Positions 30,820 through 38,521 of a stretch of 64,000 nt of DNA are shown piece by piece. Position 1 is the stretch's first letter, and each line of letters starts with the position of its first letter. Location: NCBI RefSeq assembly GCF_008001015.1, contig NZ_CP042862.1, forward strand, positions 3,038,001 to 3,102,000. Reading direction: 5' to 3'. A program made the translations under genes and the position numbers. Origin of the DNA: Serinicoccus profundi (lineage in GTDB: Bacteria; Actinomycetota; Actinomycetes; Actinomycetales; Dermatophilaceae). Under the pieces are notes generated by a model, which made no database searches, was not told the DNA's origin, and saw nothing but the letters and a program-made list of their open reading frames with translations.

Positions 30820-32259
30820 TCAGTCCCCGAGCTCGGCCCGGCGCCGCACGACGTAGGCCTCCAGCTCCTCCTTGACCGCGGGGTCCAGCGGCGGCGCCTC
30901 GTAGGCCTCGAGCCGTGACGCCACGACCGCGCCCGCCCGGGTCGCGGTGTCCGGCGAGCCCTTGCCGCTCCAGCGCTCGAAGTTGTCGGCGCTGGAGAGG
31001 AACGGGCGGTAGAAGCAGGTGCGGAAACGCTCCATCGTGTGCATCGCGCCGAGGAAGTGCCCGCCGTGCCCGACCTCGACGTGGGCGTCGAAGGCCAGGC
31101 TGCCCTCGTCGATCTCCAGCGGCTTGAACTCGTGCTGCAGCATCTCCAGGATCTGGCAGTCGACGACGAACTTCTCGAAGCTCGACACGAGCCCGCCCTC
31201 CAGCCACCCGGCCGAGTGCATGACCCAGTTGGTCCCGGCCAGGAAGGTCGGCAGCAGCGTCATCGTCGCCTCGTAACCCGCCTGCGCGTCCGGCACCTGC
31301 GAGGACGTCAGCCCACCCCCACCGCGGAACGGCAGCCCGAAGTGCCGGGCGATCTGGCCGGTGCACAGCAGCCCCAGCCCCGACTCCGGCGTGCCGAAGG
31401 TCGGCGACCCGGACTGCATGTCGATCGTCGACAGGAAGGACCCGAAGATCACCGGCGTCCCCGGCCGGATCGTCTGCGCGAGCGCGATCCCGGAGAGCGC
31501 CTCGGTGATCTGCTGGGTCAGCGCCGCCGGGATGGTCACAGGCGACATAGCCCCCATGAGGATGAACGGCGTGAGCACGACCGGCTGGGCGGCGCGGGCA
31601 TACTCGAAGAGCGACTCGAGCATCCGGTCGTCCCAGCGCAGCGGGCTGTTGCAGTTGATGAGCGAGATCGACGCCGGGGTCTGCTCGATCGCCTCCCGGC
31701 CACCGAAGAGGATCTCGCCCATGGCGATGACGTCGCGGGCATTCTCGCCGGTGACCACATTGCCCATGTAGATCTTGTCGGTCTGCGTCATGAGCGCGAG
31801 CGTCATGTCGAGGTGGCGGGAGTCCAGCGGCAGGTCGTTGGGCTCGCAGACGACCCCGCCCGCCGAGTCGAGCACGTCGAAGGTCTGCGCGAGCCGCGCG
31901 AACCGCTGGAAGTCGTCGAAGGTCCCGTCGCGCCGGGCCTCGCCCTCGCGCACGAAGGGCGGGCCGTAGACCGCGCCGAAGGCCATGCTGTCGCCACCGA
32001 TATGCACCGAGCGCTCGGGGTTGCGCGCCTGCACGTCGAACTCGTGCGGCGCCTTGGCGACCTGCTCCAGCACCCACTCCGGGTCGAGGTATGCCGTCTC
32101 CCCCTCGACCTTCTGCCCCGCCTGGCGGAAGAGCTCCAGGGCCTCCTCGCTGGCGAACTGCACGCCCACCTCGGTCATCAGCCGGCGCCAGGCGCCGTCC
32201 AGCTGCTCCATCGCCTGCTCCGAGAGCACCTCATACCTCGGCATGCGGTTGACGAACAT
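30820..32259 (-). CDS. MttB-family corrinoid-dependent methyltransferase without pyrrolysine (glycine-betaine type proposed)
   Basis: 479 residues from the ATG at 32259, which has GAGGAGGAG before it. Trimethylamine methyltransferase superfamily: MPRYEVLSEQAMEQLDGAWRRLMTEVGVQF, TFDVLDSAGGVVCEPNDLP, LMGAMSPVTIPAALTQQ, GLPFRGGGGLTSSQVPDAQAG and AGWLEGGLVSSFEKFVVDCQILEML. There is no in-frame amber codon, so it belongs to the non-pyrrolysine branch, which includes the characterised glycine betaine methyltransferase MtgB. It would move a methyl group from a quaternary amine to the corrinoid protein encoded divergently. Glycine betaine is favoured because dimethylglycine dehydrogenase is nearby, but proline betaine or carnitine cannot be excluded. 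Confidence 0.8.
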   Translation of the reverse strand: MFVNRMPRYEVLSEQAMEQLDGAWRRLMTEVGVQFASEEALELFRQAGQKVEGETAYLDPEWVLEQVAKAPHEFDVQARNPERSVHIGGDSMAFGAVYGPPFVREGEARRDGTFDDFQRFARLAQTFDVLDSAGGVVCEPNDLPLDSRHLDMTLALMTQTDKIYMGNVVTGENARDVIAMGEILFGGREAIEQTPASISLINCNSPLRWDDRMLESLFEYARAAQPVVLTPFILMGAMSPVTIPAALTQQITEALSGIALAQTIRPGTPVIFGSFLSTIDMQSGSPTFGTPESGLGLLCTGQIARHFGLPFRGGGGLTSSQVPDAQAGYEATMTLLPTFLAGTNWVMHSAGWLEGGLVSSFEKFVVDCQILEMLQHEFKPLEIDEGSLAFDAHVEVGHGGHFLGAMHTMERFRTCFYRPFLSSADNFERWSGKGSPDTATRAGAVVASRLEAYEAPPLDPAVKEELEAYVVRRRAELGD

Positions 32260-32321
32260 CGCTCCTCCTCCCCGTCCCCGGTGGCCCGGGCGACGCGCCG
32301 GACGACACACCCTTGCGTCGT

Positions 32322-32355
32322 CTCACGATATGGGCATACGCTCCCACATAGTGAG
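32322..32355. promoter_or_regulatory. Inverted repeat in the mttB-iclR divergent promoter
   Basis: CTCACGATATGGG (32322-32334) and CCCACATAGTGAG (32343-32355) are imperfect inverted arms around an 8-base centre (CATACGCT). The element lies in the 121-base gap between the divergent methyltransferase and IclR genes and is a good candidate for the binding site of that IclR. It differs from the sites assigned to the first IclR. Confidence 0.45.
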
Positions 32356-32380
32356 AACTCAGGGAAGAGGGACACGAAAG

Positions 32381-33139
32381 ATGGCGACCCAGGGGACCCA
32401 GGCGATCGACCGAGCGGCCGATCTCGTCGTGCGCGTCGTCCAGTCCCCCGACCCGCTCTCGACCCCCGAGCTGGCGCAGGCCACGGGCCTGGCCCGCTCG
32501 ACCGTCTCCCGGTTGCTCGCCGCGCTGGAGCGCTCCCACCTCATCTCGCGCGACGTCGAGGGCCACGGCTACCTCCCCGGGCCGCTCTTCGAGCAGTACG
32601 CCGCCCGCACCGACACGCGCGAGTGGCTCGCCCGCGAGGCGCACTCGACGATGGCGGCGCTCAGCGACGCCACCGGCGAGACCATCAACCTCGGCGTCCC
32701 CGTCGGCGGCGCGGTCGTCCAGATCGCCCAGGTCGACTCGACCTTCATGATCGGCAGCCGCAACTGGGTGGGCGTCGACCTGCCGGCCCACTCCTCCTCC
32801 CTGGGCAAGACGTTGTATGCCTTCGGCGCCCTCGACCTGCCCGCGCAGCTCGAGGCGCTCACCGAGCGCACGGTCACCGACCCGGACACGCTGCGCGCCG
32901 AGTTCGAGGTCATCCGCCGCCGTGGCTGGGCGACCACCGTCGACGAGCTCGAGGTGGCGCTGACCGGCATCGGCGCGCCGGTCCGCCTGCGCGGCCGCCT
33001 CGTCGCCGCGCTGGGCGTCTCCGGCCCGACCTCCCGCCTGTCCGGCCGGCTCGACGAGCTCGGCCGCCTCGTCTCCCGGCACGCGGACGACCTGTCCGCG
33101 CGCCTCACCGAGCCGCACATGATGAAAGGTGCCTCATGA
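32381..33139 (+). CDS. IclR-family regulator of the corrinoid methyltransferase operon
   Basis: 252 residues. Winged helix (QAIDRAADLVVRVVQSPDPLSTPELAQATGLARSTVSRLLAAL) and IclR effector domain (STMAALSDATGETINLGVPVGGAVVQIAQVDSTFMIGSRNWVG, DLPAHSSSLGKTLYAFG). First gene of the plus-strand operon; its TGA overlaps the ATG of the corrinoid protein, so regulator and enzymes share a transcript. The similar DSTFMIGSRNWVGVDLPAHS and GPSTITSYNWVGQHIPLHA segments in the two IclR proteins suggest related effectors, probably methylated glycine derivatives. Confidence 0.85.
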   Translation: MATQGTQAIDRAADLVVRVVQSPDPLSTPELAQATGLARSTVSRLLAALERSHLISRDVEGHGYLPGPLFEQYAARTDTREWLAREAHSTMAALSDATGETINLGVPVGGAVVQIAQVDSTFMIGSRNWVGVDLPAHSSSLGKTLYAFGALDLPAQLEALTERTVTDPDTLRAEFEVIRRRGWATTVDELEVALTGIGAPVRLRGRLVAALGVSGPTSRLSGRLDELGRLVSRHADDLSARLTEPHMMKGAS

Positions 33140-37409: not shown

Positions 37410-37420
37410 CCCCCCAACCC

Positions 37421-37661
37421 CACCGAGCGCCGCAGATGGCTCCCCCTGACCCCACCGAGCGCCGAGGATGGTCGCCCCTGACCCCACCGAGCGCCGAGGA
37501 TGGTCGCCCCTGACCCCACCGAGCGCCGCAGATGGCTCCCCCTGACCCGACCGAGCGTCGCAGATGGTTCCCCCTGCCCCCACCGAGCGCCGCAAATGGT
37601 TGTGCTGCTGACCATCTGCGGCGCTCGGTCGTGCGTGAGCCGACCATCTGCGGCGCTCGGT
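37421..37661. repeat. 32-bp-phased array: six direct and two inverted copies of a 19-bp repeat
   Basis: Copies of CACCGAGCGCCGCAGATGG start at 37421, 37453, 37485, 37517, 37549 and 37581, exactly 32 bases apart; variants have GAGGATGG or GCAAATGG. Two inverted copies (CCATCTGCGGCGCTCGGT) follow at 37612 and 37644, again 32 apart. The array fills the whole gap between the convergent DUF1638 and MTHFR genes. The last direct and first inverted copy can form an 18-bp hairpin with a 12-base loop, so it may also terminate both transcripts. It is not a CRISPR, because the spacers are near-identical. Confidence 0.9.
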
Positions 37662-37666
37662 CGGAC

Positions 37667-38521
37667 CTAGGGTCGGCGCAGGTCGGCTGCCCGGGAGAGC
37701 TGCTCGCGGCGCCACGCCTCGGTCTTCTCGACCTGGTTGAAGCTGTAGAGGTGCAGGCCGCCGATCCCCAGCCGCTCGGTGCCGGCGAGCGCCGCGACCC
37801 GGTGGGCGAAGCGGGTGGTGGTGAAGCCGGGGAGCGCGATGCGGGTGAAGACGCCGTGCTGCTTGCGCAGGAAGCGCATGGAGTCACCGACCCCGATGAC
37901 CGTCGCCATCTTGAGCAGCTTGGCCGGGTCGACCGGACCGGGCACGCCGATCCAGACCGGCTGCTCGATCCCGCGGCGCCGGATCCGCTCCAGCCACCGG
38001 CCGACCTGCTCGTCGTCGAAGGTCATGTTGGAGACGATGTCGGTGGCGTAGCGCCGCTTGTCCCACATCGACTGCACGATGACGTCGTCGTCGATGCCCG
38101 GGTGGGACTCGGGGTAGCCGGTGATCCCCACCCGCTCGAACGGCCGGCCCAGCTCCTCCAGCTCGATCAGCAGGTCGAGGGCGTTGGTGAAGGCGGTCTC
38201 GGTGGGGGTCGCGTCACCGCCCGGCACGAAGATCTCGGTGACCCCGGCGGCGCGGAGCCGGGCGACGATGTCGGGCAGCTCGGCACGCCCCACCATCCGC
38301 GCGGCCAGGTGCGGGACGACGTGATAGCGGTCCGCCAGCTCCTCGGTGAGGGCCAAGGTGGCCTCGAGGCCCTTGGCCGGGGAAGCCGTGACGGTGACGG
38401 TGCGCCCGGGCTCGACGTGGGCGTGCACCTGCTCGGCGATCGAGCCGGTCGGCAGGATCTCCAGGCGTGCTCCCCGCAGCAACCCCTCCAGCGCCACGGA
38501 GGGGCATTTGTTGCTCATCAT
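37667..38521 (-). CDS. Methylenetetrahydrofolate reductase-like protein
   Basis: 284 residues, MTHFR-type barrel: TVTVTASPAKGLEATLALTEELADRYHVVPHLAARMV, GVTEIFVPGGDATPTETAFTNALDLL, RVGITGYPESHPGID, DIVSNMTFDDEQVGRWLERI, WIGVPGPVDPAKLL. It is shorter and more divergent than housekeeping MetF. With the methyl-THF-forming system on the other side of the repeat array, it is likely to run in the oxidative direction, returning methyl-THF to methylene-THF. Two adjacent ATG codons (38521, 38518) can start it. A site like the first IclR's operator lies immediately upstream. Confidence 0.8.
   Translation of the reverse strand: MMSNKCPSVALEGLLRGARLEILPTGSIAEQVHAHVEPGRTVTVTASPAKGLEATLALTEELADRYHVVPHLAARMVGRAELPDIVARLRAAGVTEIFVPGGDATPTETAFTNALDLLIELEELGRPFERVGITGYPESHPGIDDDVIVQSMWDKRRYATDIVSNMTFDDEQVGRWLERIRRRGIEQPVWIGVPGPVDPAKLLKMATVIGVGDSMRFLRKQHGVFTRIALPGFTTTRFAHRVAALAGTERLGIGGLHLYSFNQVEKTEAWRREQLSRAADLRRP

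Follow-up and report, generated by a model that had tools for sequence, protein, structure and literature searches.

A corrinoid-dependent gene cluster of Serinicoccus profundi with a proposed role in glycine betaine demethylation

Organization of the gene cluster

In a 64,000 nucleotide stretch of the Serinicoccus profundi genome (contig NZ_CP042862.1, positions 3,038,001 to 3,102,000; referred to as the window) we analyzed a group of seven genes which most likely encode a glycine betaine demethylase dedicated to catabolism, similar in kind to the MtgBCD system known from Ruegeria pomeroyi. All seven genes named in a preliminary description of this DNA were found again as open frames at the expected place when reading frames and Pfam domains were scanned. 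The first, mttB (30820..32259, minus strand), encodes an MtgB-type nonpyrrolysine methyltransferase of 479 amino acids and is proposed to act as glycine betaine:corrinoid methyltransferase (PF06253, 616.9 bits). It is the only PF06253 gene of the genome, which consists of a single contig of 3.48 Mb. Back to back with mttB lies a plus-strand operon in the following order: an IclR-family regulator as the first gene (32381..33139; PF01614, PF09339), an MtgC-like corrinoid protein (33136..33813; PF02310 and PF02607, with the motif DVHDIG at residue 102), a pterin-binding methylcorrinoid:tetrahydrofolate methyltransferase of putative MtgD-like type (33810..34715; PF00809), a RACo-type ATP-dependent reductive activator of the corrinoid protein with [2Fe-2S] and ASKHA domains (34712..36709; Fer2 and RACo linker, middle and C-terminal domains) and a DUF1638 protein (36723..37409; PF07796, 82.5 bits), whose start is uncertain and whose conserved part begins near 36777. 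A short, MetF2-like MTHFR gene (37667..38521, minus strand; PF02219, 37.3 bits at a cut-off of 24) faces the DUF1638 gene across 257 bases. Coupling of most of these genes by 4-bp overlaps had been reported earlier. Such overlaps are indeed present at 33136 (IclR/corrinoid protein, ATGA), 33810 (corrinoid/pterin-binding protein, ATGA) and 34712 (pterin-binding protein/RACo, GTGA); RACo and DUF1638 show no clear overlap, and mttB and the MTHFR gene are on the opposite strand. The divergent region between mttB and the IclR gene contains a palindromic operator candidate (32323..32354, no strand), supported by a genome pattern search and by relatives.

At some distance on the minus strand the Pfam architectures bear out a second group, described before as DMGDH-ETF at 20–24 kb. 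It spans 20025–24411 and comprises a dimethylglycine/sarcosine dehydrogenase-type flavoprotein (DMGDH; 21775..24411, start probably at an ATG near 24363; DAO, FAO_M and GCV_T) and the beta and alpha subunits of an electron transfer flavoprotein (EtfB, 21008..21778, PF01012; EtfA, 20025..21011, PF00766 and PF01012). A second IclR-family regulator (26308..27111, minus strand) lies between mttB and the DMGDH gene and is kept in 21 of 25 clusters of the family (see below).

The methyltransferase and its predicted substrate contacts

MttB was described as free of an amber codon, and its frame has no in-frame stop across the 479 residues; in the alignment Leu317 takes the place of pyrrolysine in the M. 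barkeri enzyme. The best solved matches are 4yyc and the MtgB of D. hafniense (2qne/9yce). The closest of them, 4yyc, does not differ at any of 476 compared residues from a protein of S. meliloti whose gene, on pSymB, is located in the same kind of cluster. For D. hafniense MtgB the residues Y94, N199, R309 and H345 were proposed as betaine contacts by docking (PMC6855144). When the numbering was matched via residue identity, all four predicted contacts were kept in the window protein (Y98, N202, R312, H348), as they were in 77 of 93 alignment rows.

In a tree of MttB proteins (IQ-TREE, quick mode, SH-aLRT support) 50 actinobacterial rows, two of them from unclassified bins, form a separate group with a support of 91, and 30 mostly alphaproteobacterial rows are grouped with a support of 99. 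D. hafniense MtgB falls outside both groups, with a root that rests on the single, very long M. barkeri branch. Within the window's genus there are two distinct MttB lineages, with 76–77% and 94–95% identity to the window protein, hinting at separate acquisition or an old divergence.

Corrinoid, pterin-binding and accessory proteins

The corrinoid motif D-x-H-x-x-G is present in all 61 rows compared, among them the window protein and the corresponding module of the genome's own MetH, and the best NCBIfam model for the window protein is corrin_MtgC_2, with 195.5 bits at a cut-off of 370. The pterin-binding protein scores 303.6 bits against PRK07535 (cut-off 259), a model that its S. meliloti counterpart passes as well. 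Its best solved matches are MetH and MeTr structures, and none of its 17 solved relatives, compared by name alone, is named MtgA. Judged by these matches it is of the MeTr/MetH kind and MtgD-like; in the preliminary description it carried the label MtgA. The RACo protein has its best solved match in 3zyy (3.8e-86), a RACo-type protein sharing its activator domains, and the MTHFR in 7xg9 (2.3e-25), likewise a short MTHFR; both are sequence matches only. It is proposed that the short MTHFR would oxidize methyl-tetrahydrofolate (methyl-THF) to methylene-THF.

In DUF1638 Cys25, His55, Cys86 and Cys109 are invariant in 27 of 27 rows. A structure comparison of its predicted alpha/beta fold gave no telling match. 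DUF1638 mutants of Phaeobacter are rescued by methionine, like mutants of a RamA-like activator; in the passages of Price et al. on these mutants no specific function is proposed (PMC5764234). The protein is probably a helper of corrinoid reactivation and a candidate for handling a metal or the corrinoid.

Distribution and conservation in relatives

PF06253 was found in 28 of 186 genomes of the window's family and in 11 of its 53 genera, the genome under study included. A sample of the order (396 genomes) contained seven genomes with a match, six of them above the cut-off; two of the seven (S. profundi and G001) belong to the window's family. We fetched the stretches around all 27 other matches of the family and counted an MttB as being of this type at an identity of at least 65% to the window protein. 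This applied to 25 of the 27 loci, the exceptions being a paralogue with 57% identity (L056) and a locus with stubs (L058). Of these 25 clusters 21 contain the complete core set of six genes (for MttB, the corrinoid and pterin-binding proteins, RACo, DUF1638 and MTHFR), so that chance assembly is excluded. Two of the incomplete clusters are cut by contig ends (L047, L052), and two lack only the MTHFR in the fetched stretch (L045, L054). An IclR gene lies beside mttB in all 25 clusters, and DUF1638 is present in 23.

In a wider scan of contigs, which yielded 593 relatives, we kept the 80 best. At 12 of these 80 loci all six core genes were detected when similarity of any degree (E≤1e-8) was accepted. 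Of a set of 26 of the 80 (the named loci, L092–L116 and L131), three are alphaproteobacterial and the rest actinobacterial or unclassified; hosts with a name include Phycicoccus jejuensis, Nocardioides, Pseudonocardia kujensis, Actinophytocola gossypii, a metagenome-assembled genome (MAG) of Jatrophihabitans and MAGs of Acidimicrobiaceae. MttB of this type was found at 18 of the 26 named loci, and seven of the 18 have all six core genes. A contig end is close by in eight of the remaining 11, the exceptions being L096, L099 and L107. The gene order of the unit is conserved in Phycicoccus, Nocardioides and other actinobacteria.

Given the patchy occurrence in the family, the cluster might be a decaying or silent remnant, or might be used under oxygen limitation only. 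In one genome (G165, locus L058) MttB, RACo and DUF1638 are reduced to stubs, located beside matches to serine deaminase, PurU and the second IclR, which looks like a loss of the unit. In the window, however, all frames are open, and in four congeners MttB is 94–95% identical and the palindrome is kept as well. We therefore regard decay or restricted use as very unlikely.

Gene context and substrate

To characterize the surroundings in relatives, nine representative genes located between mttB and DMGDH-EtfB-EtfA were scanned against models. Five of the models were matched above their cut-offs: PurU, serine deaminase, choline dehydrogenase, BetT and a proV-type ATPase. For the others the best match stayed below the cut-off, namely BADH, a choline ABC permease and, for two proteins, the betaine BCCT model. 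DMGDH was found in the same fetched stretch as mttB at 16 of the 25 family loci; when BetA and BetB were also counted, at least one of the three was present at 21 of the 25 family loci and at 11 of the 18 named loci. Serine deaminase is encoded immediately downstream of mttB in L037, L047, L049 and L052, where it links betaine-derived glycine and methylene-THF to pyruvate. By its sequence matches the gene set of the relatives makes up a putative route that starts from choline and ends at pyruvate, with betaine, dimethylglycine, glycine and serine as intermediates; PurU would take care of surplus C1 units.

The S. profundi genome carries its supply genes in other places. It contains betT, betA and betB in a row (betA 810 bits at a cut-off of 732.1; BetB with BADH as best match, 581.6 of 668.6 bits), PurU (312.3 bits, cut-off 285.95), a serine deaminase and CobS. 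Betaine transport is represented by three BCCT genes and, beside metH, by proV and a proW-like gene. No ring-hydroxylase alpha subunit, as expected for betaine monooxygenase (gbcA/B), was detected in this genome (PF00848, E≤0.001: 0 matches), while 4 of 14 control genomes were positive. The usual oxygenase route therefore seems to be replaced, as had been suggested.

In relatives choline, betaine and DMGDH genes often share the stretch with the cluster, which makes glycine betaine the most likely substrate. The original proposal of this substrate is thus supported by the gene context in relatives, by genes elsewhere in the genome and by four of four predicted contacts.

Several observations weigh against this assignment. 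Choline and transport genes do not adjoin the cluster in the window or in its four nearest congeners. In four of the 25 family clusters (L042, L052, L055, L057) and in 7 of the 18 named clusters none of DMGDH, BetA and BetB was found above the identity thresholds in the fetched stretch; L052 does carry a serine deaminase and PurU, and L102 a BetB with 56% identity. At two actinobacterial loci, L081 and L107 (one sequence), MttB of this type stands alone. The window corrinoid protein does not reach the NCBIfam cut-offs for MtgC (195.5 of 370 and 152.4 of 310 bits), and that of S. meliloti also stays below (212.5 of 370). The betaine contacts of MtgB are all docking predictions, and a further predicted contact, F353, is a glycine in the window protein and in 91 of the 93 rows, so that the pocket is not the same as in D. 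hafniense MtgB. Finally, the tree spans actinobacterial and mostly alphaproteobacterial MttB rows together with D. hafniense MtgB and the M. barkeri enzyme, and takes in no enzymes specific to proline betaine, carnitine or gamma-butyrobetaine and none of MtpB, MtcB and MtyB.

As an alternative, the same machinery might demethylate proline betaine, carnitine, gamma-butyrobetaine, choline or some further methylated osmolyte. Close MttB homologues are described as differing in substrate, with MtyB and MtcB sharing 53% identity (PMC8604678), and among relatives of the window protein the pocket does shift. Eight actinobacterial paralogues with 54–58% identity form a sister clade (support 97; L056, L083, L108, L109, L110:11738, L111, L112, L116) in which Tyr94 is lost in 8 of 8 and His345 in 7 of 8 members, with Gln instead. 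In the window's own clade Asn199 is replaced by Ser in four rows (L040 and L057 from the same genus, L081, L107). However, the neighbors in relatives are choline and betaine genes, and the window protein itself keeps the four contacts; another donor thus appears unlikely. For the paralogues the altered residues suggest that the substrate is probably another methylated compound. At seven of their eight loci no other core gene was found in the fetched stretch, and the eighth (L110, the Jatrophihabitans MAG) shares one stretch with an MttB of the standard kind. Some of the paralogues adjoin DMGDH-like flavoproteins of about 27% identity.

Relation to methionine synthesis

Methionine synthesis in Ruegeria likewise depends on MtgC and MtgD, the mtgC and mtgD mutants being methionine auxotrophs, and MetH is reported as absent from 108 of 156 MtgBCD genomes (PMC12478193). 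According to the same source MtgBCD also occurs in 28 of 239 metH genomes, so that the double duty in methionine synthesis together with MtgE is typical, not universal. A split methionine synthase is likewise described for Phaeobacter, with RamA-like and DUF1638 helpers (PMC5764234). By analogy the cluster could be a split methionine synthase using methyl-THF, with betaine demethylation secondary or absent. The S. profundi genome, however, encodes a full-length MetH (1233 amino acids, 1831.8 bits at a cut-off of 1497, spanning model positions 10–1229 of 1234), and the only homocysteine methyltransferase domain (PF02574) detected in the genome lies within this metH frame. A search for BHMT accordingly gave no PF02574 outside MetH, and no MtgE was found. 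As mttB is moreover part of the unit, we consider a split methionine synthase extremely improbable. With a complete MetH and no other homocysteine methyltransferase domain the cluster is most likely purely catabolic, and in contrast to Ruegeria no role in methionine synthesis is needed for it.

After metH come proV, a proW-like gene, a further gene and a second MTHFR gene (L059, 7090–15079), the latter being one of two MTHFR matches in the genome. This arrangement places betaine/choline uptake with methionine synthesis.

The IclR regulator and its operator candidate

The palindrome in the divergent mttB/IclR region has the form TCACGATATGG-N10-CCACATAGTGA. At up to three mismatches this is the single match in the 3.48 Mb genome; the reversed pattern as a control gave none, and none is expected from shuffles of the window. 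With 10 or 11 central bases and at most four mismatches the palindrome was found in 34 of 47 divergent regions, some of which had served to derive the pattern, compared with a mean of 0.04 and a maximum of 1 in 100 shuffles. It was not found in the other 13 regions, mostly of more distant relatives. DMGDH-ETF, which adjoins the second conserved IclR, has no such palindrome. As the palindrome is the only such site in the genome, the adjacent IclR is probably a dedicated local switch, which would act through this one palindrome and on this unit alone.

Repeat array and split acyltransferase gene

Between DUF1638 and the MTHFR gene (37417–37660) we noticed a repeat of 32–33 bases around CCGAGCGCCGCAGATGG, with six direct and two inverted copies. 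Three more copies are located at 15993–16075 in a lipoyl/E2 acyltransferase region. At up to two mismatches the window holds 12 copies in all, compared with 0.08 expected. Exact copies occur at one other place in the genome, near purU (where L063 and L080 overlap); in the other fetched loci there was no exact copy except in L003, which is the window repeat region itself. The E2 acyltransferase (15409–16976) is seemingly split at the repeat array into the frames 15409–16095 and 16086–16976, which may reflect a frameshift, a pseudogene or two proteins.

Comparison with known systems and proposed pathway

MtgB, MtgC and MtgA of D. hafniense, an anaerobe, constitute a glycine betaine:THF methyltransferase system. 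The window cluster resembles it in having a corrinoid protein and a nonpyrrolysine homologue of MtgB in which the four predicted contacts are kept, and differs in its second methyltransferase of putative MeTr/MetH kind. In the glycine betaine:coenzyme M pathway of the archaeon Methanolobus vulcani, which serves methanogenesis, the roles of MtgB and MtgC are similar, but the acceptor is coenzyme M (PMC6855144).

The view that such systems are mainly those of anaerobes, taken over in the preliminary description, is contradicted by the aerobic R. pomeroyi, for which Mausz et al. (2025) report the B12-type betaine route from mtgC and mtgD knock-outs and proteomics, with MtgB-like proteins, MetF2, RamA and DUF1638 raised (PMC12478193). 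An aerobic version of betaine demethylation is therefore not new, and the earlier view has been out of date since 2025. With Ruegeria MtgBCD the window cluster shares the nonpyrrolysine MtgB (PF06253), separate corrinoid (PF02310) and pterin-binding (PF00809, MeTr/MetH kind) proteins, a RamA/RACo-type activator, DUF1638 and a dedicated second MTHFR. The same divergent arrangement of MttB and corrinoid genes is found on pSymB of S. meliloti and on a plasmid of Paracoccus. The MttB proteins are 43–47% identical; the pterin acceptor enzyme of S. meliloti is of the MeTr/MetH kind, like that of the window. In contrast to S. meliloti and Paracoccus, the short window MTHFR has no adjacent gene for a C-terminal-domain partner. 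Unlike the Ruegeria and S. meliloti systems the cluster has an IclR and a palindromic operator candidate, and its MttB falls into a separate tree clade. From the known aerobic kind it would thus differ in that no methionine coupling is needed and in its regulator, which probably acts at one site.

In the proposed pathway glycine betaine would be demethylated by MtgB, with the cob(I)alamin of the corrinoid protein as methyl acceptor, and the pterin-binding protein would pass the methyl group on to THF. Corrinoid oxidized to Co(II), an event expected in air, would be re-reduced by RACo with DUF1638. The short MTHFR, working in the oxidative direction, would supply methylene-THF both to serine formation and, via PurU, to C1 oxidation. 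From dimethylglycine the DMGDH-ETF encoded nearby would lead to sarcosine and glycine, which would be followed by serine and pyruvate. Control of mttB and of its own operon would be exerted by the adjacent IclR through the one palindrome between them.

Whether the Actinomycetota hold a branch of their own seems to us an evenly balanced question. Such a branch would combine oxygen-tolerant, B12-dependent betaine demethylation uncoupled from methionine, a full MetH elsewhere in the genome, an IclR switch with a single palindrome, and a sister paralogue clade for another methylated compound, perhaps sharing the corrinoid protein.

Glycine betaine is among the commonest osmolytes. With MetH alongside, the cluster offers a convenient test case, since a knock-out of betaine demethylation could be made that causes no methionine auxotrophy, unlike in the Ruegeria mtgC and mtgD mutants. 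If the proposed function is true, betaine turnover in actinobacteria of this kind would be cobalamin-dependent and would yield methyl-THF instead of formaldehyde, and surveys for gbcAB or bhmt only would overlook these actinobacteria.

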